From positions 1 through 23,776 of the IMG/VR virus record IMGVR_UViG_3300033064_001526: a DNA stretch of 23,776 nt. One strand, 5' to 3'. Each line of letters begins with the position of its first letter. Positions within the stretch are counted from its first letter, which is position 1. This document shows positions 2,874 to 22,265 of the stretch, one piece after another. The notes beneath the pieces were generated by a model, which saw only the letters and a program-made list of their open reading frames with translations, did not search any database and had not been told where the DNA came from. The translations under genes and the position numbers were made by a program. The DNA is from a virus.

Positions 2874-3332
2874 CTACATAGCTTTGACAAACGCGGCACG
2901 AGCAGCGGTCGTAAATCCAGCGGTTGCCCCGATCGCAAAGCCCATCGGGAAGACTATCACAGCAGTCGACGCCGTTGACATCGATTCGAGGCAAAACACC
3001 GAGCCTGCAACGTTGATCGCGAGAGGACGGCCAGCAGCGACTGCCGGAGTGCCGCCCGTAACAGTGCGAACTCGCACCGACGAGTGGTATCCGTACACCT
3101 GCAAGAGGCCGTAGGCACCAGCAGCGATGCTGGCATCTGCGACAACACCAGCAGCAGCCGTACCTGCGTTGGTAGCCCGGGCCGAAGGACGCGTCACGCT
3201 AACGCCGTCAGCGTCCGTGGCGAAATCCCAAATGACACCCTGACCGACCGTGATAGCAGCCGACGAGAACGAGTTGTAGACGACGACGAACACTTTCTCG
3301 GGGTTGTTGCGATTGATGCGCTGGAAAAGCAT
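2874..3332 (-). CDS. Putative head decoration/stabilisation protein (152 aa)
   Basis: This is a 152-residue, Ala/Gly/Val/Thr-rich protein with many short beta-prone stretches and no charged helices. It lies immediately after the major capsid gene, the usual place for a decoration (head-stabilising) protein. It has a strong AAGGAG ribosome site before the ATG at 3332 and is followed by a G/C-run hairpin, both consistent with a protein made in high amounts as part of the capsid unit. I do not recognise a named family, and the call rests on position and composition. Another minor head protein is the main alternative. Confidence 0.6.
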   Translation of the reverse strand: MLFQRINRNNPEKVFVVVYNSFSSAAITVGQGVIWDFATDADGVSVTRPSARATNAGTAAAGVVADASIAAGAYGLLQVYGYHSSVRVRTVTGGTPAVAAGRPLAINVAGSVFCLESMSTASTAVIVFPMGFAIGATAGFTTAARAAFVKAM

Positions 3333-3435
3333 GATCTGACTCCTTATTCACTGACACGCAACTTGCTGCGTCGTTTTTTATTGGACGACCCCTGTCAAAC
3401 CTAAGTCATTTCCGGTTGCGCGCGGAGTGACTCAA

Positions 3436-4563: not shown

Positions 4564-5511
4564 CTAGTCGAAGCGTTCGCCGCGACGGGCTGCGGCAGCG
4601 GACTCCCCAAACGAGGGAAGCTTCCCGGTTGCCGGTGATTTGGATACGGCCTTATCTGAAACGGTACGAGTGTTACCACCGCTCTTACGAGCAGAAGCTA
4701 CCATCCGCTTGGCAGCCTTTTTGGTGGCGTCTCCCTCCTTGCCCGAGCTGGTGGCAAGAATGTAGATATTGTCGAGGTACTCACGTTCACTCATGCCGGA
4801 ACCAACCGGCATTTTCTTCGTGAGAGCAACCATCGCGGACTCATGGTCTTTCCAGTCCGGGTGATCCTTAGCGAACGACCTGAGAATAATTTCGGATTCC
4901 CGGGCGGAAGATTCAGTGATCAGCGTGTTTTGCCCCTCCTGAAGGGGCTTAATGGCTTCGCCAACGATTAGCGACGCCGCGCTGTGAATAGCTTCCCCGA
5001 GACGATCGGCGAGGTCCTCGTATTCTGGACCGAGCGCCTTCCGTACTCCCTCTTTGATCTGATCGCTAACTGCCTCGACAGCGGCTTCCGCTTTGACCTC
5101 AGATTTCGGCTTCACAATTTCGATGCCGAGTTGCTGTGCCAGTTCAGATGCCGCCGCACGTGGATTGGCTTCGTACGCTTTGACGAATTCGGCATAGGGT
5201 GCCAGTCGTTTCCGTTCGCCGGATAACTCCTGGAACTTCTTTGTAGCCGCCCTGTTCAGCTCCTTGCGGAGAGCCGTAGGGTCATCTTTCAGTTCGTCAA
5301 ACTTTGCCTGCCCGATGAGATCGACCTCCTTGCTATCGTCTTCATCGCCAGGATCTGCGTCGTCGCTTTCCTCGTCGCCTTCCGTATCGATTTCTTCGCT
5401 TGCTTCCTCGTCACCTTCGACGCCGGAATCAACGGCTTCTGCTTGGTCCGAAGTATCGGACTGCTCATCAAATTCGTCGGTCTGTTGGTCGTCAGTTTCT
5501 TCGTCAGCCAT
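4564..5511 (-). CDS. Capsid scaffolding protein
   Basis: The product is a 315-residue, strongly charged protein. Residues 1-65 are dominated by Asp and Glu. A long helical, coiled-coil-prone region follows (about 70-200, rich in Glu, Lys, Ala and Leu), then a basic, low-complexity C-terminus ending near RRGERFD. An acidic head, helical middle and basic tail that contacts the capsid protein is the classic scaffold layout, and the gene lies directly upstream of the major capsid gene as expected. AGGAG precedes the ATG at 5511. I see no protease catalytic motif, so a separate or absent maturation protease is likely. Function is inferred from composition and synteny, not from a sequence family. 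Confidence 0.8.
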   Translation of the reverse strand: MADEETDDQQTDEFDEQSDTSDQAEAVDSGVEGDEEASEEIDTEGDEESDDADPGDEDDSKEVDLIGQAKFDELKDDPTALRKELNRAATKKFQELSGERKRLAPYAEFVKAYEANPRAAASELAQQLGIEIVKPKSEVKAEAAVEAVSDQIKEGVRKALGPEYEDLADRLGEAIHSAASLIVGEAIKPLQEGQNTLITESSARESEIILRSFAKDHPDWKDHESAMVALTKKMPVGSGMSEREYLDNIYILATSSGKEGDATKKAAKRMVASARKSGGNTRTVSDKAVSKSPATGKLPSFGESAAAARRGERFD

Positions 5512-5545: not shown

Positions 5546-5917
5546 TCAGTATTTACTGCTCGATTTACGTTTTCGAATGTTAGCTGCAAGAACTTCTCGC
5601 ATGCCCCCGCTCTTTTTATTAGCGGCGTTACGTGCACTGATAGCTCTAGCCTTGGCTTTGGCGTCGGCTTTACTTGATGCACCCCACGCCCTCAAAGACA
5701 ATGCCAAACGAGTCGGCTTCCCGTTCTTAACCATCGGCCCGGGCGCATTGCCCATTCTCGCAAGGAACGACGCGCGGCGGGGATTGTCGCCAGCCTTAAC
5801 AGGAGCTTTAAGCGTACCACCAGTCTCAGCCTTATAGGAAGCTCGTCCTTTAGCGTTTAACCCGCCTTCAGGATTCTTGCCTTCTTTACGAGTCCATGCA
5901 GCAGTAGTGGTACGCAT
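5546..5917 (-). CDS. Conserved basic phage protein, DUF6321-like (123 aa)
   Basis: The product is a 123-residue basic protein. The segment EGKNPEGGLNAKGRASY near residues 12-28, then the LKAPV stretch, RRASFLARM and NGKPTRLALSLRAWG near 85, match a conserved phage protein pattern that I recall as DUF6321. Its biochemical role is not known to me. The C-terminus is Lys/Arg-rich and may bind nucleic acid. The ATG at 5917 overlaps the TAA of the preceding gene (TAATG), so translation is probably coupled. It sits between portal and scaffold genes, where minor head or packaging-associated proteins often lie. The family name is from memory and should be treated as likely rather than certain. Confidence 0.7.
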   Translation of the reverse strand: MRTTTAAWTRKEGKNPEGGLNAKGRASYKAETGGTLKAPVKAGDNPRRASFLARMGNAPGPMVKNGKPTRLALSLRAWGASSKADAKAKARAISARNAANKKSGGMREVLAANIRKRKSSSKY

Positions 5918-6168: not shown

Positions 6169-6438
6169 CTACTGACGCCGAGACTGTTCGTTCAACTTGT
6201 CCCGACGAGCTGAAGTATCTCCCGGACTGGGGTGATCCCTGAAGTCAAGAACATTCTCGCGCATACCCTTGCGTACGTCTCCCCAACCGGTAACATACTG
6301 GCCGAGACCATTATCGAAATACGGTTCGAACCCTTTGCCTGGGGCGACACGGACATGATGGTCGCGACACCACGGAGAGTCCCCTACCCCGTATGCGATA
6401 CCGCACTTGTCGCACGTAGTTTTTGACTCATTAGTCAC
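6169..6438 (-). CDS. Small Cys/His-containing phage protein (89 aa)
   Basis: The product is an 89-residue protein with an N-terminal CxxC (CDKC near residues 9-12) and a second CxxH (CRDHH near 24-28), a probable four-ligand zinc site. A conserved-looking GFEPYFDNGLGQYVTGWGD segment and a charged C-terminus follow. I recall similar proteins next to phage portal genes but know of no assigned function. The start is GTG at 6438, which overlaps the portal stop (GTGA). GGAGAGG lies upstream inside the portal gene, so it is coupled to the portal. A structural or packaging accessory role is inferred from location. Confidence 0.65.
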   Translation of the reverse strand: MTNESKTTCDKCGIAYGVGDSPWCRDHHVRVAPGKGFEPYFDNGLGQYVTGWGDVRKGMRENVLDFRDHPSPGDTSARRDKLNEQSRRQ

Positions 6439-11251: not shown

Positions 11252-11449
11252 CTATGCCACCTTGCGTCGCTTCTTGCCGATTCGGTCCAAGTCTTTGAAC
11301 AGCTGGTCGAGGGTGATGCCCATGACTAGGGCAATCTCCCTGGCGGCGGTTAGCGAGGGCCGACGCTTGCCGTTGAAGATTTTCGAGATATGCGCCAGCG
11401 AGTACCCCGAGCGGCGGTGAATGTGCGAGAAGTTGAGTGCGCGTGACAT
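11252..11449 (-). CDS. XRE-type HTH regulator (65 aa)
   Basis: This small DNA-binding protein has one helix-turn-helix of the Cro/C1 (XRE) type. RRSGYSLAHISKIFNGKRRPSL followed by AREIALVMGITLDQLF matches the usual HTH pattern, in which the recognition helix precedes an NGKRxPSL turn. It is hardly longer than the HTH itself, so it has no separate dimerisation or cleavage domain. Two ATGs are possible: 11458 lies only 2 bp after AGGAG, whereas 11449 is spaced 11 bp and is preferred. It is the first gene of the morphogenesis direction and sits beside a dyad-rich control region, so it probably regulates one or both arms. The target is inferred, not shown. Confidence 0.75.
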   Translation of the reverse strand: MSRALNFSHIHRRSGYSLAHISKIFNGKRRPSLTAAREIALVMGITLDQLFKDLDRIGKKRRKVA

Positions 11450-11473
11450 GTAAGGCATCTCTCCTAATTATAG

Positions 11474-11591: not shown

Positions 11592-11621
11592 ATTTTACCA
11601 CAGTTGTTACGATGCTGTCAA
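11592..11621 (-). promoter_or_regulatory. Second sigma-70-like promoter, minus strand
   Basis: TTGACA (11621-11616) is followed after 18 bp by TAAAAT (11597-11592) on the minus strand. It is a stronger match than the promoter at 11474-11502. It lies 20 bp from the 18-bp dyad at 11640-11657, so a repressor on that dyad could affect it. A transcript from here would have a leader of about 130 nt before the XRE-type gene. Confidence 0.55.
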
Positions 11622-11639
11622 GTGTTGGTTCGGTTAAAT

Positions 11640-11657
11640 TTTGAACAATCGTTCAAA
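11640..11657. promoter_or_regulatory. Candidate repressor operator, perfect-arm dyad
   Basis: TTTGAAC-AATC-GTTCAAA has 7-bp perfect inverted arms and a 4-bp centre, the size and symmetry of a Cro/C1-type operator. It lies about 190 bp from the start of the XRE-type gene and just upstream of the minus-strand promoter. A weak rightward TTGAAC/TTTACA pair (17-bp spacing) overlaps it. The pairing of this site with the local regulator is inference. Confidence 0.5.
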
Positions 11658-11801
11658 CGTTACTTTACAAGGTTAGTTCAGGGGACTCAATTGTGGATTA
11701 CTCGTGGAGCGACCTTGGGCGATCCACGCCGTCCCACCTGACCCCCTTCCCAGTTTTCCCGATTTTAAAAAAACGAACATACAGGTAGATATATGTTTGG
11801 C

Positions 11802-11904: not shown

Positions 11905-11920
11905 TGGCACGACGATTGCA
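11905..11920 (+). promoter_or_regulatory. Sigma-54 (-24/-12) promoter A
   Basis: TGGCACGACGATTGCA matches the RpoN consensus TGGCACG-N4-TTGCW at every fixed position, with GG and GC at the obligatory spacing. Transcription would begin about 12 bp after the GC, giving a leader of roughly 100 nt before the ATG at 12037. No other good promoter is seen for that gene. Confidence 0.75.
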
Positions 11921-12036: not shown

Positions 12037-12294
12037 ATGGGTAACTCACTGCCGAAGCTGCCGTCACTGCCGAAGATGAAGTCCGTCAACGCTTGCGAGT
12101 GCGGATGTGGTGGTCGCACGGGTAACCGGTTCGTCCCGGGGCACGACGCGAAGCTCCTCGGCCTGACCAAGCGGGTCGCGGCCGGGGTGATGACGCTGGA
12201 CGAGGTCGCGGAATGGGGCGGCGAGGGCGTCGCCCAGGCCACGGCGAAGGCGATGGGCCTGACGTGGACACGCGCGGAGGCCAAGACGGCCTAA
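12037..12294 (+). CDS. CxCxC-PGHD family protein, copy 1 (85 aa)
   Basis: The product is an 85-residue protein. Residues 5-14 are a Pro/Leu/Lys leader (LPKLPSLPKM). Residues 20-37 hold the core shared by four proteins in this window: C20, C22, C24, T28, F32, P34-G35-H36-D37. Three Cys plus one His at fixed spacing suggest a small zinc site, although metal binding is inference. The C-terminal part (about 38-85) is helical and acidic-to-basic. A GGAG ribosome site precedes the ATG; the gene has its own sigma-54-like promoter upstream and a G11/C8 hairpin right after its stop, so it is a self-contained cassette. I recall similar short motifs in other phage proteins but know of no function. Confidence 0.8.
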   Translation: MGNSLPKLPSLPKMKSVNACECGCGGRTGNRFVPGHDAKLLGLTKRVAAGVMTLDEVAEWGGEGVAQATAKAMGLTWTRAEAKTA

Positions 12295-12396: not shown

Positions 12397-12415
12397 TCAG
12401 ACCTCTGATTGAGGC
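12397..12415 (+). repeat. Cassette repeat R1, copy 1
   Basis: TCAGACCTCTGATTGAGGC occurs identically at 13115-13133. In both places it follows a PGHD-family gene and its hairpin. CCTC-TGATT-GAGG inside it can form a small hairpin. Confidence 0.7.
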
Positions 12416-12450
12416 ATTCCGGTTCCGGGGCCGGAGGACTATTTACGACG

Positions 12451-12470
12451 TCAACGTTCATTCATTCATT
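12451..12470 (+). repeat. Cassette repeat R2, copy 1
   Basis: TCAACGTTCATTCATTCATT occurs identically at 13169-13188, about 36 bp after repeat R1 in each cassette. It contains tandem TCAT units. Together with R1 it marks a duplicated segment. Confidence 0.7.
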
Positions 12471-12489
12471 CGTGCGTTGGTCCCAATCA

Positions 12490-12626: not shown

Positions 12627-12642
12627 TGGATCGCGGCTTGCA
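12627..12642 (+). promoter_or_regulatory. Sigma-54-like promoter B
   Basis: TGGATCGCGGCTTGCA keeps the GG and GC dinucleotides at the exact -24/-12 spacing and a perfect TTGCA, but has ATC in place of CAC. It lies about 100 bp upstream of the second cassette gene, the same distance as promoter A from the first. Confidence 0.5.
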
Positions 12643-13114: not shown

Positions 13115-13133
13115 TCAGACCTCTGATTGAGGC
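13115..13133 (+). repeat. Cassette repeat R1, copy 2
   Basis: Identical 19-bp copy of the repeat at 12397-12415. The flanking sequence is also alike (GAC before it, CTCCGG/TTCCGG after it). Confidence 0.7.
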
Positions 13134-13168
13134 GCTCCGGCTCAGGAGGGAGAGAACTGCCTCAAAAT

Positions 13169-13188
13169 TCAACGTTCATTCATTCATT
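13169..13188 (+). repeat. Cassette repeat R2, copy 2
   Basis: Identical 20-bp copy of the repeat at 12451-12470, in the same order after R1. Confidence 0.7.
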
Positions 13189-13387
13189 GGTCACATCACA
13201 TCCCCAATCACCTTTGTCATTTAGTCAAGGGGGTCAAAACCTAAGTCAGCGCGGGCGTCACACGGGTATCGCGCCCCGCTCCCCGCCATCTTCACATGCG
13301 TCGTTCCATGTGTTAACTTTACTTTCAACCCTCTTCCCAAGGTCACCAATGGGATGTTAAACTGGAATACTTTGACAATGCCCGCGC

Positions 13388-13403
13388 TGGAACGGCTCTT
13401 GCA
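13388..13403 (+). promoter_or_regulatory. Sigma-54-like promoter C
   Basis: TGGAACGGCTCTTGCA differs from the RpoN consensus by one base (A for C at the fourth position) with correct GG/GC spacing. It lies about 68 bp upstream of the GTG at 13471 and would drive the 13.5-16.0 kb operon. A GC-rich stretch beginning CCGGGG follows at the expected transcription start. Confidence 0.65.
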
Positions 13404-16036: not shown

Positions 16037-16043
16037 GCGGCTT

Positions 16044-16083
16044 GTCTCCCGGAGAGGTCACCAGTTGTCTCCCCGAGAGGTCA
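16044..16083 (+). repeat. Pair of 17-bp repeats upstream of promoter D
   Basis: GTCTCCCGGAGAGGTCA (16044-16060) and GTCTCCCCGAGAGGTCA (16067-16083) differ by one base and start 23 bp apart, near two helical turns. Each contains a short dyad (TCTCC-C-GGAGA in the first). Three more copies lie upstream of promoter E at 18543-18604. Their position about 30-70 bp before the -24 box suggests binding sites for an activator. Confidence 0.6.
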
Positions 16084-16113
16084 GTCAAAGCGCTCTCTCG
16101 ACGTGGAAGCCGC

Positions 16114-16129
16114 TGGCACGGCGCTTGCA
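16114..16129 (+). promoter_or_regulatory. Sigma-54 promoter D
   Basis: TGGCACGGCGCTTGCA matches TGGCACG-N4-TTGCW perfectly. It is 60 bp before the ATG at 16189 and drives the 16.2-17.6 kb operon. CCCCCCGGGGGGG follows at the expected transcription start. Confidence 0.8.
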
Positions 16130-16188
16130 GCCCCCCGGGGGGGCTGGGCGCTGCCCCGGCGGAACGTGGAGCATGACAAGGAGAAGTG

Positions 16189-16398
16189 ATGTTTGAAAAG
16201 TTGATCGGACAGTGGGTGCACTTCCCGGATTCGAGCGGGAACCTTCACGAAGGAACTATTGTAGCGGCATGGCGCGAGAAAAAGGAAGGAATTCGAATCG
16301 CCGTCCAGTGCAAGAACAACAGGTTTTGCAATGCGTGGCTCGAGAACGTGACGGCAGGGCCGGTGATCAGGCCGAGGGAACTGCAGGGAGGCATCTGA
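16189..16398 (+). CDS. Hypothetical protein (69 aa)
   Basis: The product is a 69-residue protein, beta-rich with an SH3-like look (LIGQWVHFPDSSGNLHEGTIVAAW), then CKNNRFCNAWLENVTAGPVIRP. It has two Cys, about 6 residues apart. ATG at 16189 lies 5 bp after AAGGAG; the GTG at 16186 is only 2 bp away and less likely. The stop overlaps the next ATG (TGATG). No family is recognised. Confidence 0.65.
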   Translation: MFEKLIGQWVHFPDSSGNLHEGTIVAAWREKKEGIRIAVQCKNNRFCNAWLENVTAGPVIRPRELQGGI

Positions 16399-16694
16399 TG
16401 AAGAAAGTTTACTGGACAGTGCGCGTGGTGCAGTTTACAGACCACATTAAATACTCGACCAACCATTTGCCCGGGGTCTGGGTTGAACAGCTCCGGCACT
16501 TGGGCTACTTAAGGGAACTGGCTACATTCGACAGCCCCAACTCCGACGAACGCCTCGTCTTCTACTTCTCATTCCCGGGTTCAACTCGGGGAGTTAACAC
16601 ACAACGCTGGGCCGTGGCAGAAGCTCAACGCATGCGGTCATTCGGCATCAACGCGGTTGCTGCGCCCACTTGTGCGTACGGAGACGAACTATGA
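16398..16694 (+). CDS. Hypothetical protein (98 aa)
   Basis: The product is a 98-residue protein of alternating strands and helices (KKVYWTVRVVQFTDH, VFYFSFPG, WAVAEAQRMRSFGI), consistent with a small alpha/beta domain. No motif is known to me. It is coupled at both ends (TGATG at the start, ATGA at the end). Confidence 0.6.
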   Translation: MKKVYWTVRVVQFTDHIKYSTNHLPGVWVEQLRHLGYLRELATFDSPNSDERLVFYFSFPGSTRGVNTQRWAVAEAQRMRSFGINAVAAPTCAYGDEL

Positions 16695-16981
16695 GAGTCG
16701 CGACCCTAGCCGACTGGCGTAAAAGCCAGATCGTTTCACTCAAGGCGCAACTCCGCGTCGTGACGGTAGAATACGAACGACTCAGGACCCAAGTTGCGGA
16801 CATCAACGTTCTGATCGCTAGTCTCGCCGAAGTCACGCTTGAAAGCAGAACGACGCACAATGACAGCAAGTCGGAACCGAAGGAGTCTAAGCCCAAACGC
16901 AAGTTGTCGCATTCTCACAAACGCGCGTTGATGGCCGGTCTCAAGCGGTGGCAGGCCAAGAAAGGCAAAGGCAATAAATGA
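16691..16981 (+). CDS. Coiled-coil protein with basic tail (96 aa)
   Basis: Residues about 10-50 form a coiled-coil-prone helix (SLKAQLRVVTVEYERLRTQVADINVLIASL). The last 35 residues are Lys/Ser/Arg-rich (KPKRKLSHSHKRALMAGLKRWQAKKGKGNK, in parts), a likely DNA-binding tail. ATG at 16691 overlaps the upstream TGA; its TGA overlaps the next ATG. A small dimeric DNA-binding protein is plausible. Confidence 0.6.
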   Translation: MRVATLADWRKSQIVSLKAQLRVVTVEYERLRTQVADINVLIASLAEVTLESRTTHNDSKSEPKESKPKRKLSHSHKRALMAGLKRWQAKKGKGNK

Positions 16982-17196
16982 ATAGCAGACCGCCGATGAT
17001 AGCGCGGCCCGTTTTCGTGATGTACGTGTCAAAACGTCGTTGCCGCTACAACCCGTCGTTACAACGTTTCAACGATTTGCCGACCGTACTGCAACTCGAC
17101 GTAGCAAACAGATGGTTGACGCGCAACCCGATAGGCGACATGCTCAACTTCGACGACGTGTCGCTGCCACCAGTCAAGAAAAGGAGAAAACGATGA
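16978..17196 (+). CDS. Small basic hypothetical protein (72 aa)
   Basis: The product is a 72-residue basic protein: MYVSKRRCRYNPSLQRFNDLPT followed by VLQLDVANRWLTRNP and a PVKKRRKR tail. It is likely helical and may bind nucleic acid. It is coupled on both sides by ATGA overlaps, with AAGGAGA just before the next start. The family is unknown. Confidence 0.6.
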   Translation: MNSRPPMIARPVFVMYVSKRRCRYNPSLQRFNDLPTVLQLDVANRWLTRNPIGDMLNFDDVSLPPVKKRRKR

Positions 17197-17615
17197 CATT
17201 TTGCCACTGCGTGAAGTCTGACACCGACTTGTGCGAGTTCTGCTCTACGATGTTGTGGGCGACGAAGCTAGAACACCGCCTAAAGTCAGTCACGGAACGT
17301 CTCAGCAACATTGGTGACATCGTCGATGATATGTCCGACGAGAGCCGCATTGAAGAACTGGTGACGGATGCGGTAGAGTCCATTAAAAAAGACCTCGAAG
17401 ACCTTGCCAGCGTCGAATATGTGGACGAAGAGTTGAATAGCGCGGTAACTGACCTTGAAAGGGCGGACGAAACCCTGACCGACGAAATGGACGACATCAA
17501 CACCGAAGTTTCCGAGCAAGCCGATAAACTCAAACGTTTCGTCAACAGCGTTTCCCGGATGACGCTTTGGCAGCGCCTGAAGTGGCTGGCTACCGGATTG
17601 AGTCCCCTGAACTAA
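17193..17615 (+). CDS. Cys-cluster coiled-coil protein (140 aa)
   Basis: The product is a 140-residue protein. The N-terminus carries CHC (about residues 4-6) and CEFC (about 14-17), a possible zinc knuckle. Residues 25-120 are an unbroken acidic coiled coil with repeated Leu/Ile/Val heptads, and the last 20 residues (RMTLWQRLKWLATGLSPLN) form an amphipathic Trp-rich helix that might contact membrane. AAGGAG lies upstream of the ATG at 17193, which overlaps the preceding TGA. It is the last gene of this operon. The function is unknown. Confidence 0.65.
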   Translation: MTFCHCVKSDTDLCEFCSTMLWATKLEHRLKSVTERLSNIGDIVDDMSDESRIEELVTDAVESIKKDLEDLASVEYVDEELNSAVTDLERADETLTDEMDDINTEVSEQADKLKRFVNSVSRMTLWQRLKWLATGLSPLN

Positions 17616-17632
17616 ACTTCGAGGAGGGGTAC

Positions 17633-17661
17633 TTGACAAGGAAGCAAGTCGCGTGTTAAAA
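17633..17661 (+). promoter_or_regulatory. Sigma-70-like promoter before the 17.74 kb gene
   Basis: TTGACA (17633-17638) and TTAAAA (17656-17661) are spaced exactly 17 bp. Transcription would begin near 17669, directly ahead of a G-rich leader (17672-17702) with two GGGGGG runs, and about 70 bp before the GTG at 17741. It lacks sigma-54 boxes, so this unit is probably timed differently from its neighbours. Confidence 0.65.
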
Positions 17662-17740
17662 TGAAGGTCTTCCGGCGGGGGGAGGCGTGGAGGGGGGCGG
17701 CGGCTCCCGAGTTCAATTTTTTTGGAAGGAGGTTAGAACT

Positions 17741-18199
17741 GTGAAGATTCAAATAAACGCACTGGGCGAGGTTTCCGAAGACGACCGGTTACTCTCTTTG
17801 CGCGAAGCCGAGGCACTGGTCGAGTTGGAAAGCCGCGAGGGTATTTTGATTCGCGACTGGAACCGTCTCGACGCCGACTACGGCAGCAACCTGTTTCGTT
17901 TCTACGGGTACACAACTGCGGAAGACACCCGTATTCTTGACTTGGAGATGGAGTTCACTTTCCCGGCCAACGACGGGGATGTGCGAACGCGACTGCGAAG
18001 TTTGTGCGACTCGTTCGGCGCGACGTGGGAAGTAATGGACGTGCGAATCGAGGAGCCGGACGAGCAGCCCGAAGTTCAAGTAGCGTTCAGGCTAAACGTG
18101 TTTGGACAAGATCACGAGGGCGTCGGCAAAGTGGTCAAGCGCTGGCGCGACGAAACTACTAAACGAGGTTTAAACCACTATTGGGTGAGTCTCCTATGA
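17741..18199 (+). CDS. Hypothetical protein (152 aa)
   Basis: The product is a 152-residue acidic alpha/beta protein. A possible ferredoxin-like pattern is seen in LDLEMEFTFPANDGDVRTRLRSLCDSFGATWEVMDVRI and VQVAFRLNVFG, i.e. strand-helix-strand pairs, but I do not know the family. GTG at 17741 follows a strong GGAAGGAGG site. Its stop overlaps the ATG of a 26-codon ORF. It is the first gene under the sigma-70-like promoter at 17633-17661. Confidence 0.65.
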   Translation: MKIQINALGEVSEDDRLLSLREAEALVELESREGILIRDWNRLDADYGSNLFRFYGYTTAEDTRILDLEMEFTFPANDGDVRTRLRSLCDSFGATWEVMDVRIEEPDEQPEVQVAFRLNVFGQDHEGVGKVVKRWRDETTKRGLNHYWVSLL

Positions 18200-18276
18200 T
18201 GACATTTTGGCGACGGTACAAATTTTATCGAGCTTGTGGATTCGGACCGTTCAAATCCCTGTGGAGAGCGTGGTAA
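18196..18276 (+). CDS. Very small Trp/Arg-rich protein (26 aa)
   Basis: A 26-codon frame starts at ATG 18196 and overlaps the TGA of the preceding gene (ATGA). It encodes a basic aromatic peptide built as MTFWRRYKFYRACGFGPF plus a short SLWRAW end. I recall similarly built short basic peptides with a central GF/GL turn in other phages, which supports it being real, but the function is unknown. A second ATG follows at 18199. Confidence 0.5.
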   Translation: MMTFWRRYKFYRACGFGPFKSLWRAW

Positions 18277-18306
18277 CCAAGGTGGCGGCTGACGAGGACA
18301 TCGACT

Positions 18307-18696
18307 ATGCGAAGCATCACGAAATATGACTTAACCCAGACGCTGAGCGTTTTGAACCGTCTCAGCGGCATTGCGCAGCCAGGGCATGACACGCCGGGAA
18401 GCTGGCAAATCGGCTGGGCCTACGGCGGGTGTCAGTTGGAGCGGGTGGCGAATACTGGCGGGGTGCATAGCTTCGGCGGCTTTGGCACGAAGCGCGAAAC
18501 TCTCTCGCGGATGTTAGCTATGATCGACGGCGTCAGAGAGCTGTCTTTCCCGGAGGTCACCGCATTGTCTCCCGGAGAGGTCAACCCGTCTCCCGGAGAG
18601 GTCACGGAAAGTTCCGGCGGGGCGGCACGGCCCTTGCAGCTCTCCGGGGGTGGCAGCACCCGCCGCTTGTCGAGGGTACCGAACAATGACGGTTAA
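18307..18696 (+). CDS. Conserved small phage protein with repeat-derived C-terminus (129 aa)
   Basis: Residues 1-80 resemble a widespread small phage family of unknown function: MRSITKYDLTQTLSVLNRLSG, then AYGGCQLERVANTGGVHSFGGFGTKRE and LSRMLAMIDG. Relatives I remember stop shortly after this point. Here the frame continues for about 45 residues of low complexity, including SPGEV units, because it reads through the 17-bp repeats at 18543-18604, promoter E and the start of the next gene. The tail is therefore probably a by-product of regulatory sequence. Ribosome-site signal is weak. The fold-family likeness is from memory. Confidence 0.6.
   Translation: MRSITKYDLTQTLSVLNRLSGIAQPGHDTPGSWQIGWAYGGCQLERVANTGGVHSFGGFGTKRETLSRMLAMIDGVRELSFPEVTALSPGEVNPSPGEVTESSGGAARPLQLSGGGSTRRLSRVPNNDG
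18543..18604 (+). repeat. Three 17-bp repeats upstream of promoter E
   Basis: GTCTTTCCCGGAGGTCA (18543-18559, degenerate), then two perfect copies of GTCTCCCGGAGAGGTCA (18567-18583 and 18588-18604). The perfect copies are 21 bp apart, two helical turns, and identical to the first copy at 16044-16060. The last copy ends 18 bp before the CGGCAC of promoter E. Confidence 0.65.
18623..18638 (+). promoter_or_regulatory. Sigma-54-like promoter E
   Basis: CGGCACGGCCCTTGCA has the GG and GC at exact -24/-12 spacing and differs from consensus only at the first base. It lies 48 bp before the ATG at 18686 and inside the 3' end of the overlapping upstream frame. CCGGGGGTGGCAGCACCC follows, able to form a GGGTG/CACCC hairpin. 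Confidence 0.6.
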
Positions 18697-18883
18697 AGAG
18701 CTAATCGAAAAGCTGTCCCACGAGCCACTTGATGCCAAAGTGCTGCTGGTGGACCGCGTGGGACGATTAATTGAAGCGCGGCACGTTTCATTCGCGTGGG
18801 CCGAGGAGGGGATCGCCAACGCGTGGATCGAGCGGTCGATGAGGTTGAGCACGGAGGTGCAGACGGCGGTAAAGATTCAGTAA
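18686..18883 (+). CDS. Conserved small phage protein (65 aa)
   Basis: The product is a 65-residue protein. The start MTVKELIEKLSHEPLDAKVLLVD matches a common phage/bacterial small-protein pattern (MTVxELIxxLxxxPxDAxVxVxD) of unknown function. ATG at 18686 is chosen because the match begins there; further-upstream starts would run through the promoter hairpin. It is followed by a 150-bp structured leader rather than another coupled gene, so it forms a single-gene unit under promoter E. Confidence 0.65.
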   Translation: MTVKELIEKLSHEPLDAKVLLVDRVGRLIEARHVSFAWAEEGIANAWIERSMRLSTEVQTAVKIQ

Positions 18884-18904
18884 GCAAGGCGCAGCCTGTG
18901 CTGC

Positions 18905-19017
18905 GTGGAACCCATGACGGGATGCGTAGAGTAGCTGACCCAGCAAGACCAGTGAAAACACCCGGTGTGGGTTCCACGGAGCGCAGGGCGTTCCAACCGC
19001 GAGGATCAACCTTGCGG
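18905..19017 (+). other. Structured leader upstream of PGHD copy 3
   Basis: GTGGAACCCA (18905-18914) and TGGGTTCCAC (18968-18977) are perfect 10-bp inverted arms 53 nt apart. A second hairpin, CCGCGAGG (18997-19004) with CCTTGCGG (19010-19017), has one G-U pair and a 5-nt loop, and ends 4 nt before the AAGGAGG of the next gene. The 150-bp gap has no gene or good promoter. It may be a regulatory 5' leader or a small RNA. Confidence 0.45.
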
Positions 19018-19033
19018 CACCAAGGAGGCAGTT

Positions 19034-19534
19034 GTGAGCAGGAACAGACGTAACAAGAACGTTGGCGGAGCGGACTCGGTCGAAGTGACGAAGGTCACTA
19101 AGTTCGTGACGGACGCAGAAGCGAACGCAGCGTTGGCAGACGTGGCCAAGGTTGTCAGCATGGCTGACCGCAGAGAGGCGGACGCGAAGAAGAAGGCACC
19201 CAAGGCGCTCAAGGCGCTCAAGGATGGGCGCGTCAAGCTGCCGCCGTTGCCGAGGGGCGCGAACAAGCAGAAGCCGCTGGTCCCGTGCGGGTGCGGATGC
19301 GGTTCGCAGACGCGCTCGAAGTTCGCACCCGGGCACGATAGCCGGTTGCGCGGATGGGCACTCCGGGTGGCGCGGAACATGGTGAAGCTAGACGAGATCG
19401 TAACCGTGTACAAGTGCTCGGAGGGTGAGCGCAACGCGGTTGAGGCGCACATCAAGCAGCTGAAGAAGGACGGCCTGTGGGAAGCGCTCAAGGACCCGCA
19501 GGCTCCCGCCAAGAAGACTGCCACCGCTGAATAG
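19034..19534 (+). CDS. CxCxC-PGHD family protein, copy 3 (166 aa)
   Basis: This copy is longer. Residues 1-65 are a Lys/Ala-rich helical arm, residues 68-74 the Leu-Pro leader (KLPPLPR), and residues 85-102 the core with C85, C87, C89, T93, F97, P99-G100-H101-D102. The remaining part (103-166) is helical and basic and continues the family with GWALRVARNMVKLDEI. GTG at 19034 lies at proper spacing from AAGGAGG (19022-19028); the frame continues upstream but only through the structured leader. A GC hairpin follows the stop. The Ala/Lys-rich arm resembles nucleoid-type tails, so DNA binding is a possible role, not shown. Confidence 0.75.
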   Translation: MSRNRRNKNVGGADSVEVTKVTKFVTDAEANAALADVAKVVSMADRREADAKKKAPKALKALKDGRVKLPPLPRGANKQKPLVPCGCGCGSQTRSKFAPGHDSRLRGWALRVARNMVKLDEIVTVYKCSEGERNAVEAHIKQLKKDGLWEALKDPQAPAKKTATAE

Positions 19535-19542
19535 AGAGCAAA

Positions 19543-19568
19543 GGGGGGCGGGGCAACCCGTCTCCCCC
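19543..19568 (+). terminator. GC hairpin after copy 3
   Basis: GGGGG-CGGG pairs with CCCG-n3-CCCCC around a 4-nt loop, 9 bp after the stop. It has no U-tract. Another member of the G/C-run hairpins that follow each PGHD-family gene. Confidence 0.5.
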
Positions 19569-19589
19569 AACTCTTGTCCAAGGATAACC

Positions 19590-20552
19590 ATGGATTCAGC
19601 ACTCATCACCAAACTCAACAAGATCCTCGCCCTGACCAGTTCACCGGTCGAAGGCGAAGCACAGGCGGCGGCAGAACACTTGCAGCGCCTGCTCACCAAG
19701 CACAACTTGGATATCGCAGACCTTGAACAGCGTGGCGCGGCGAAGCGGCCCGAAGTCAAGGAAGGCGGACACGATCTTGGCAAAGCGGCGTTCAAGTGGA
19801 AGCTTGAGCTGGCTGACACCATTGCCGAGCACTTCTTCTGCGTGTCGCTTACCAACCACACCACCAAAACGGTGCAGTTTGCTGGACGGCCCGACAACGT
19901 CGAATCACTCCAAATGCTTTACTCTTGGGTGATCGAGCAGATCAAAGGCATCTCGGCATCCGAGCGACGCATCTACACCGAGAAGACCGGCGAACACGTC
20001 GACCCGCTGCGCTGGCAGGTGAATTTCGGCCTAGGCGTGGTGCAACGACTCGGTGGTCGTCTCAGCGAGATTCGACGTAAGCGGGAGGCCGAAGCTGAAG
20101 CTGCGGCGGGGGGCAATCTCGTGACCGCCCTAGTTGTGAGCCACGCGCGTGAGGTGTCCGACTACCTCGAAGAGAAGTACGGCTACCGCAAAGACGGGCA
20201 GTTGACCAAAAAGGAACGTGCGGCCAAGGAAAGGTGGGAGGCGCACGACCGCATGGTGGACGCCTTCAAGGAAGCCGGAGAGATGGACAAGTACTACGCG
20301 CACCGTCCGTGGGAACGCCCCAAGACGGCGGAGCAACTCGCGGCGGAAGAGAAAGCGCGGGTTAAGGCCGACCGGGACTGGGATCGCAAAGCGGCGAGAC
20401 GCCGAGGCCGACCGTACCGTGAGCAGTCGCACGAGCAGTTGCGTAAGAGTGAGCAGGCGTACGAGGCCCGAGAGTCGGGCCGCAACAACGCAGGCAAGAT
20501 TAACCTGGAACCGTTCCTCGCTGAGGGTGCCAAGAAGGAAGCGTTACGATGA
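19590..20552 (+). CDS. DUF2786-like protein (320 aa)
   Basis: The product is a 320-residue protein. Residues about 4-50 (KLNKILALTSSPVEGEAQAA plus RLLTKHNLDIADLE) match the DUF2786 pattern, where an LL-type helix is followed by GEAxxAxxxAxxLxxKHxL. The middle continues in the manner of the domain usually paired with DUF2786 (FKWKLELADTIAEHFFC, then a VQFAGRPDNVESLQMLYSWV region). The C-terminal 120 residues are a highly charged Arg/Lys/Glu helix. DUF2786 is widespread in phages and bacteria without an agreed function; a nucleic-acid link is only suspected. The gene begins a coupled chain that runs to about 22.2 kb. Confidence 0.75.
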   Translation: MDSALITKLNKILALTSSPVEGEAQAAAEHLQRLLTKHNLDIADLEQRGAAKRPEVKEGGHDLGKAAFKWKLELADTIAEHFFCVSLTNHTTKTVQFAGRPDNVESLQMLYSWVIEQIKGISASERRIYTEKTGEHVDPLRWQVNFGLGVVQRLGGRLSEIRRKREAEAEAAAGGNLVTALVVSHAREVSDYLEEKYGYRKDGQLTKKERAAKERWEAHDRMVDAFKEAGEMDKYYAHRPWERPKTAEQLAAEEKARVKADRDWDRKAARRRGRPYREQSHEQLRKSEQAYEARESGRNNAGKINLEPFLAEGAKKEALR

Positions 20553-22120: not shown

Positions 22121-22220
22121 CGACAAACCCAGCATAGGATGCACTTTCTTAGCCGTGTTGTTCCTGTTAGCGTTTTGGGCTTTCGGGGCTTTATTGGGCT
22201 ACCTTTGGTACGATTCATGA
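22113..22220 (+). CDS. Small single-pass membrane protein (35 aa)
   Basis: This 35-codon frame starts at TTG 22113, overlapping the last codons of the upstream gene, and ends at TGA 22218-22220. Residues about 10-32 (CTFLAVLFLLAFWAFGALLGYLW) form a clear hydrophobic transmembrane segment. A GAGG lies 9 bp upstream of the TTG. GTG at 22083 in the same frame is an alternative start. A membrane role such as lysis or host-envelope modification is possible, but the sequence shows only the membrane segment. Confidence 0.5.
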   Translation: MSNDKPSIGCTFLAVLFLLAFWAFGALLGYLWYDS

Positions 22221-22228
22221 GTCGCCAC

Positions 22229-22258
22229 TTGACAAAAGGGCTAATGGTGTGGTTTAAT
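22229..22258 (+). promoter_or_regulatory. Sigma-70-like promoter before PGHD copy 4
   Basis: TTGACA (22229-22234) and TTTAAT (22253-22258) are 18 bp apart. Transcription would begin near 22265, right at the dyad that surrounds the ribosome site, giving a leader of about 22 nt. Confidence 0.6.
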
Positions 22259-22265
22259 TTGAGTT

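Follow-up and report, generated by a model that had tools for sequence, protein, structure and literature searches.

The viral DNA analysed here, which we call the window, is the whole of IMG/VR record IMGVR_UViG_3300033064_001526 (23,776 nucleotides), itself a fragment of a genome. Its structural genes (terminase, portal, capsid) run leftward and a set of small early-type genes runs rightward. We examined a short tandem repeat that occurs in two clusters in the right arm, each just upstream of a predicted sigma-54 promoter, together with the corresponding repeats and a sigma-54 activator gene in a related phage.

Dyad repeats upstream of two predicted sigma-54 promoters

Exact copies of the 17-mer GTCTCCCGGAGAGGTCA, singled out by a first-pass annotation of the sequence, lie at 16044, 18567 and 18588, and the copy at 16067 differs from it by one base, all as that annotation had stated. 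Such copies with at most one mismatch are expected only 0.05 times, and none of 100 shuffles reached four. A search of the full phage and host genomes had been proposed as a check; scanning the whole record at up to three mismatches returned nothing beyond these four. A fifth, degenerate copy claimed at 18543 (GTCTTTCCCGGAGGTCA) is indeed present, but it is the weakest member: it differs at 5 of 17 positions, which is why the three-mismatch search did not list it, and with a matrix built only from the related phage described below it scores 14.2, where shuffle maxima have a mean of 11.1 and a 95th percentile of 15.2. Taken by itself this copy is borderline. We also searched all viral contigs for the exact 17-mer with one position free and obtained four single matches in unrelated contexts, which we take as chance.

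The repeat unit is better read as an 18-bp imperfect palindrome, or dyad, than as a 17-mer. The copies are as follows, with positions of centres given relative to the predicted transcription starts:

16043–16060, + strand: dyad D1, TGTCTCCCGGAGAGGTCA, centre about −88 of predicted start D
16066–16083, + strand: dyad D2, TGTCTCCCCGAGAGGTCA, centre about −65 of predicted start D
18542–18559, + strand: dyad E1, degenerate, TGTCTTTCCCGGAGGTCA, centre about −98 of predicted start E
18566–18583, + strand: dyad E2, TGTCTCCCGGAGAGGTCA, centre about −74 of predicted start E
18587–18604, + strand: dyad E3, CGTCTCCCGGAGAGGTCA, centre about −53 of predicted start E

Start-to-start spacings are 23 bp in cluster D and 24 and 21 bp in cluster E, within the 21–24 bp first proposed. 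This amounts to 2.0–2.3 helical turns, and the accompanying proposal that the copies lie on the same face of the DNA therefore holds only approximately. Cluster D falls after a stop codon (16036) and before the gene that comes next (16189), whereas cluster E overlaps, in frame, the 3′ end of the open reading frame (ORF) 18307–18696, which encodes SPGEV repeats there. Folded as RNA, the arrays were no better than shuffled RNA, and an Rfam search found nothing.

For sigma-54 promoters we scored the consensus TGGCACG-N4-TTGCW at fixed spacing, counting the first base of the pattern as −26. Five sites, all on the + strand of the right arm, resemble the −24/−12 sequence of this promoter class and are predicted promoters:

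11905–11920, + strand: sigma-54 site A, exact; no dyad array
12627–12642, + strand: sigma-54-like site B, two mismatches; no dyad array
13388–13403, + strand: sigma-54 site C, one mismatch; no dyad array
16114–16129, + strand: sigma-54 site D, TGGCACGGCGCTTGCA, exact consensus; predicted start near 16140
18623–18638, + strand: sigma-54 site E, CGGCACGGCCCTTGCA, one mismatch; predicted start near 18649

Under a second-order Markov model, the window would be expected to hold 0.017 exact sites and 0.22 sites with at most one mismatch. We found two of the former (A and D) and five of the latter (sites A, C, D and E, with a fifth in the structural arm at 3352). Across 1.6 Mb of other loci, mostly phage, there were 0 exact sites and 27 with one mismatch, and a separate scan of whole records gave a single exact site in one relative, G033. 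Cluster D ends 31 bp before site D and cluster E 19 bp before site E, which bears out the original description of the clusters as lying just upstream of these promoters. When arrays were placed at random in right-arm intergenic DNA, the probability that both fell within 35 bp upstream of a sigma-54 site was 0.007, and position by itself is therefore only moderate evidence. As a separate observation, the −12 element of the sigma-54 sites is followed by runs that are rich in GC and in part palindromic (at D: CAGCCCCCCGGGGGGGCTG, 16128–16146), which is unusual where DNA must melt.

A matching array and a sigma-54 activator in a related phage

Because the terminase, used as a single-protein query, found no relative, we searched with the capsid, and these searches led to a 61.6-kb phage, G001, whose capsid, portal and terminase are 75%, 59% and 55% identical to those of the window. 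G001 is the only relative found with shared early genes, including a DUF2786 protein (about 51%) and members of a small CxCGC...PGHD protein family, and both phages encode an HTH_3 protein (48% identical). Relatives sharing the structural module alone, G033 among them, had neither early genes nor arrays in common with the window, and further searches with the early proteins gave no third phage with the shared early module. The capsid also has distant relatives in the Myxococcus phages Mx8 and Mx9 (26–27%).

Repeat finding in the early region of G001 returned TGTCCTCCGGAGAGTACA, TGTCCTCGGGGGAGTACA and TGTCCTCGGTGGGATACA, the best of which matches the window unit at 14 of 18 positions. A symmetric matrix made only from the window copies and run over the first 20 kb of G001 placed sites at 3191 (18.5), 6209 (15.9) and 6186 (14.8) at the top, against shuffle maxima with a mean of 11.5 and a 95th percentile of 15.9. 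The reciprocal matrix, made from three G001 copies, puts the window copies first, with all scores at or below 14.8 and under the 95th percentile of 15.2. Since single-site scores lie near the noise ceiling, the array is the stronger test. Site pairs 18–36 bp apart that score at least 8 occur in G001 only in the array at 6241–6169, where Markov shuffles of G001 give 0.03, and the same paired-site test over 1.64 Mb of other loci found no such array.

The array at 6241–6169 contains three copies with centres at −63, −86 and −118 of a sigma-54-like promoter, TGGCACGGCGTCTGCA, compared with −65 and −88 at D and −53, −74 and −98 at E in the window. The dyads are found upstream of a sigma-54-type promoter in the window and are kept in that position in a relative. 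Dyad spacings in G001 are 22, 23 and 32 bp. The G001 promoter precedes a homologue of window gene 12037, and because window promoter A, which lies before 12037, has no array, the arrays seem to move between promoters. A second G001 array (3191, 3169 and 3146; spanning 3191–3129) was recovered by a joint matrix, which is an in-sample test.

G001 encodes a 392-amino-acid protein with a Sigma54_activat domain (PF00158, E 3e-63) and an AAA+ lid (PF25601). Its motifs comprise a Walker A GETGVGKD, a GSFTGA (an A-to-S variant of the GAFTGA loop), a Walker B FLDEIGEM, the arginine-finger segment FRADLMYRL and WPGNVRE, and by these features its AAA+ domain is predicted to be that of a bacterial enhancer-binding protein. 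No receiver domain was found in it. G001 is a real phage, as shown by DNA polymerase, helicase, methyltransferase and HNH genes on the arm that holds its early genes. None of the 53 other capsid relatives tested, many of them fragments, has PF00158. PF00158 proteins in contigs L118–L120 were dropped because they look host-derived (for example, beside MiaB), and many nominal phage matches to the activator look like mislabelled bacterial records.

G001 further encodes a PurZ-like protein, a PF18909 dATP/dGTP diphosphohydrolase and a UDG-PolA polymerase with DpoZ matches (L022 1507–4137, 4137–4814 and 5702–6976), the PurZ and DpoZ matches falling below the NCBIfam cut-offs. Given these genes, it is possible that the G001 genome contains 2-aminoadenine.

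Genes and other conserved elements around the arrays

The genes that follow the two array-bearing promoters are these:

16189–17615, + strand: unit downstream of D, five small genes of unknown function
18686–20552, + strand: genes downstream of E, in a putative transcription unit, namely 18686–18883, a PGHD-family gene (19034–19534) and a DUF2786 gene (19590–20552)

The lone recognised DNA-binding regulator of the window is the 68-amino-acid HTH_3 protein (11252–11458), and no sigma-54 protein is encoded within the window. The CxCGC...PGHD family (phrog_5477, function unknown) has four window copies, at 12037, 12741, 19034 and 22287, two of which are the first gene after a sigma-54 site.

A conserved non-coding element, TCAGACCTCTGATTGAGGC..., occurs in the window at 12397–12473 and 13115–13191 and in G001 (L020) at 5555–5453, with 77% identity to G001 over 103 nt (E 1.6e-12). 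It lies about 245–288 bp upstream of sigma-54 sites B and C and of the G001 equivalent, and no RNA-fold signal was found in it. The arrays share with this element at B and C the partial match GACCTCT-N4-GAGRC, on which we did not rely because it was found after the fact and stays below 8 in the joint matrix.

Another shared element, of 22–23 nt (ATTGAGTCCCCTGAACTAA...), is found in the window at 11592–11691 on the − strand and 17597–17662 on the + strand. Each copy precedes a near-perfect sigma-70-like promoter (TTGACA-18-TAAAAT), and of these two promoters one points toward the structural genes and the other toward gene 17741. A further sigma-70-like form, CTTGAC...GGTGTGGTTTAAT, occurs several times in contig L009 and once in the window (22220–22260), and is perhaps a host-specific promoter consensus.

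Interpretation and known sigma-54 systems

We consider it probable that some sigma-54 activator binds the dyad clusters, which would serve as its upstream activating (enhancer) sequences. One bacterial enhancer-binding protein, an AAA+ ATPase, would bind the tandem dyads about 53–98 bp upstream of starts D and E and contact host RNA polymerase carrying sigma-54 at the −24/−12 sites; ATP hydrolysis by the activator would then drive promoter opening, and the 16.2-kb and 18.7-kb units would be switched on together. The sigma-54 would come from the host, and the activator would probably be phage-encoded in the lineage, as in G001, in which case its gene may lie in the rest of the genome of the window phage; for the activator that acts on the window dyads, we regard phage origin as about evenly balanced. 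The first-pass annotation had left open whether the sites serve one enhancer-binding protein or a repressor. The G001 array and the G001 activator, which are the decisive evidence here, support a reading of this kind, and they favour an activator, because G001 has both a dyad array at nearly the same distance from a promoter and a sigma-54 activator that the 53 other relatives do not have.

Several observations weigh against the enhancer interpretation. The dyad element was found in one relative only, and sites A, B and C carry no array. The dyad centres in the window (about −53 to −98) and in G001 (−63 to −118) differ from the 100–150 bp usual for sigma-54 enhancer sites, a distance that is typical and not obligatory (PMC7057263), those of the window being nearer. 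In G001 a sigma-54-like site at 3242 has its predicted start about 26 bp upstream of where the array at 3191–3129 begins. That site shows a weak alignment to promoter D (81% over 32 nt, E 0.04). A weaker dyad, at 5238, is likewise situated downstream of a different sigma-54-like site. The window encodes no PF00158 activator, though it is a 23.8-kb fragment and relatives reach about 60 kb. In G001 about 0.8 kb separates the activator gene from the homologue of window gene 22287 upstream of it; the window ends (23776) shortly after 22287, and window gene 23140 weakly resembles the gene right after the G001 activator, which suggests that an activator gene, if the window phage has one, sits at another place than in G001. 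The C-terminal 107 residues of the G001 activator match no known helix-turn-helix family in Pfam; a low-confidence model of this domain, too uncertain to be relied on, places two short strands between three helices and a final one, the order seen in a winged helix. Finally, a genome-collection search did not identify the host, and hence its sigma-54.

Among the alternatives, we give the most weight to activation by an enhancer-binding protein of the host: the phage would have copied its sites, coupling phage timing to a host signal. Sigma-54 hosts usually carry several activators and the window contains no activator gene, both of which fit this proposal; it is nevertheless made improbable by the finding that the dyad-bearing relative encodes its own activator while the other relatives tested have neither dyads nor activator, and by dyads that match neither the Nla28 nor the NifA site. 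Somewhat less probable still is that the dyads are lambda-like operators, 17–18 bp long and 21–24 bp apart, through which the HTH_3 protein or another phage regulator would silence the D and E units. Three-site arrays with such spacing resemble the lambda operators, the HTH_3 protein is present in both phages, and the G001 dyads downstream of two sigma-54-like sites lie where polymerase would be blocked, the array among them leaving room for a repressor and being the strongest point in its favour. The window arrays, by contrast, lie 19–31 bp upstream of their promoters without overlap, no dyads scoring at least 8 occur near the HTH_3 gene, where autoregulation would be expected, and a sigma-70-like promoter across the arrays was looked for and not found.

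An RNA-level or replication element with sigma-54 sites nearby by coincidence seems very unlikely to us. Iterons can take the form of tandem repeats of about 22 bp, and the arrays, like the sigma-54 sites, were counted as intergenic; yet folding is not above that of shuffled RNA, there are two arrays and not one, each stands before a sigma-54 site, and the geometry is alike in G001. We give least credence of all to chance or a coding-driven repeat, for which the in-frame position of cluster E in its ORF could be cited. Coding constraint, which the first-pass annotation had named as a possible refutation, is excluded because cluster D is non-coding and spacings of 23 bp (cluster D) and 22, 23 and 32 bp (G001) are not multiples of three, and chance has to contend with the 0.05 copies expected and with a dyad that is kept in G001.

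If the clusters are enhancers, the arrangement resembles promoters of the NtrC/PspF/NorR type, with −24/−12 sites matching TGGCACG-N4-TTGCW, two or three upstream dyads and, in the close relative G001, a gene for an activator of their class. It differs from them in being phage-borne and, as described above, in the distances of its dyads, and the dyad fits neither of the two known sites against which it was tested, those of Nla28 and NifA. Nla28 of Myxococcus xanthus recognises tandem CT[C/G]CG[C/G]AG half-sites (PMC9765219) and is similar in having tandem GC-rich sites at sigma-54 promoters, but with one mismatch allowed the window arrays contain no such half-site; the NifA site TGT-N10-ACA does not occur in the window. 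FleQ of Pseudomonas works from promoter-near sites without looping, and at some promoters its sites are atypically downstream of the RpoN site (PMC6120874, citing Jyot 2002). In this respect FleQ offers a precedent for proximal and downstream sites, as may hold in G001 (PMC6120874), although it is a host flagellar regulator and is likened here by site position, not by site sequence.

Phage-borne activator domains exist elsewhere, since the sigma-54 activation domain is found, as in G001, in PHROG 7998 (phrog_7998, no assigned function) and in a PF00158 protein of the gut phage Phage DP SC_2_H4_2017; the 38.7 kb scanned of that phage contains no TGGCACG-N4-TTGCW within two mismatches. In the open-access literature searched, we found no description of a phage-encoded sigma-54 activator system with enhancer arrays, and the combination of phage-borne activator, conserved arrays and sigma-54 promoters appears to be new.

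A broader possibility, which we hold at somewhat short of even, is a phage lineage with its own sigma-54 regulon, in which an ATPase with an unrecognised C-terminal domain, acting through arrays that shift between promoters, would place several early or middle operons under ATP-driven opening. As a speculative extension, to which we assign a much lower probability than to such a regulon, active melting could offset the harder opening of 2-aminoadenine DNA.

One protein and three arrays make a directly testable set, and could provide a self-contained activator–enhancer pair for laboratory use. Phages take over host transcription through new sigma factors, anti-sigma factors, repressors or whole polymerases. 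If the enhancer interpretation is true, these phages would have a distinct way of timing their gene expression, one that is tightly off until the activator is made.

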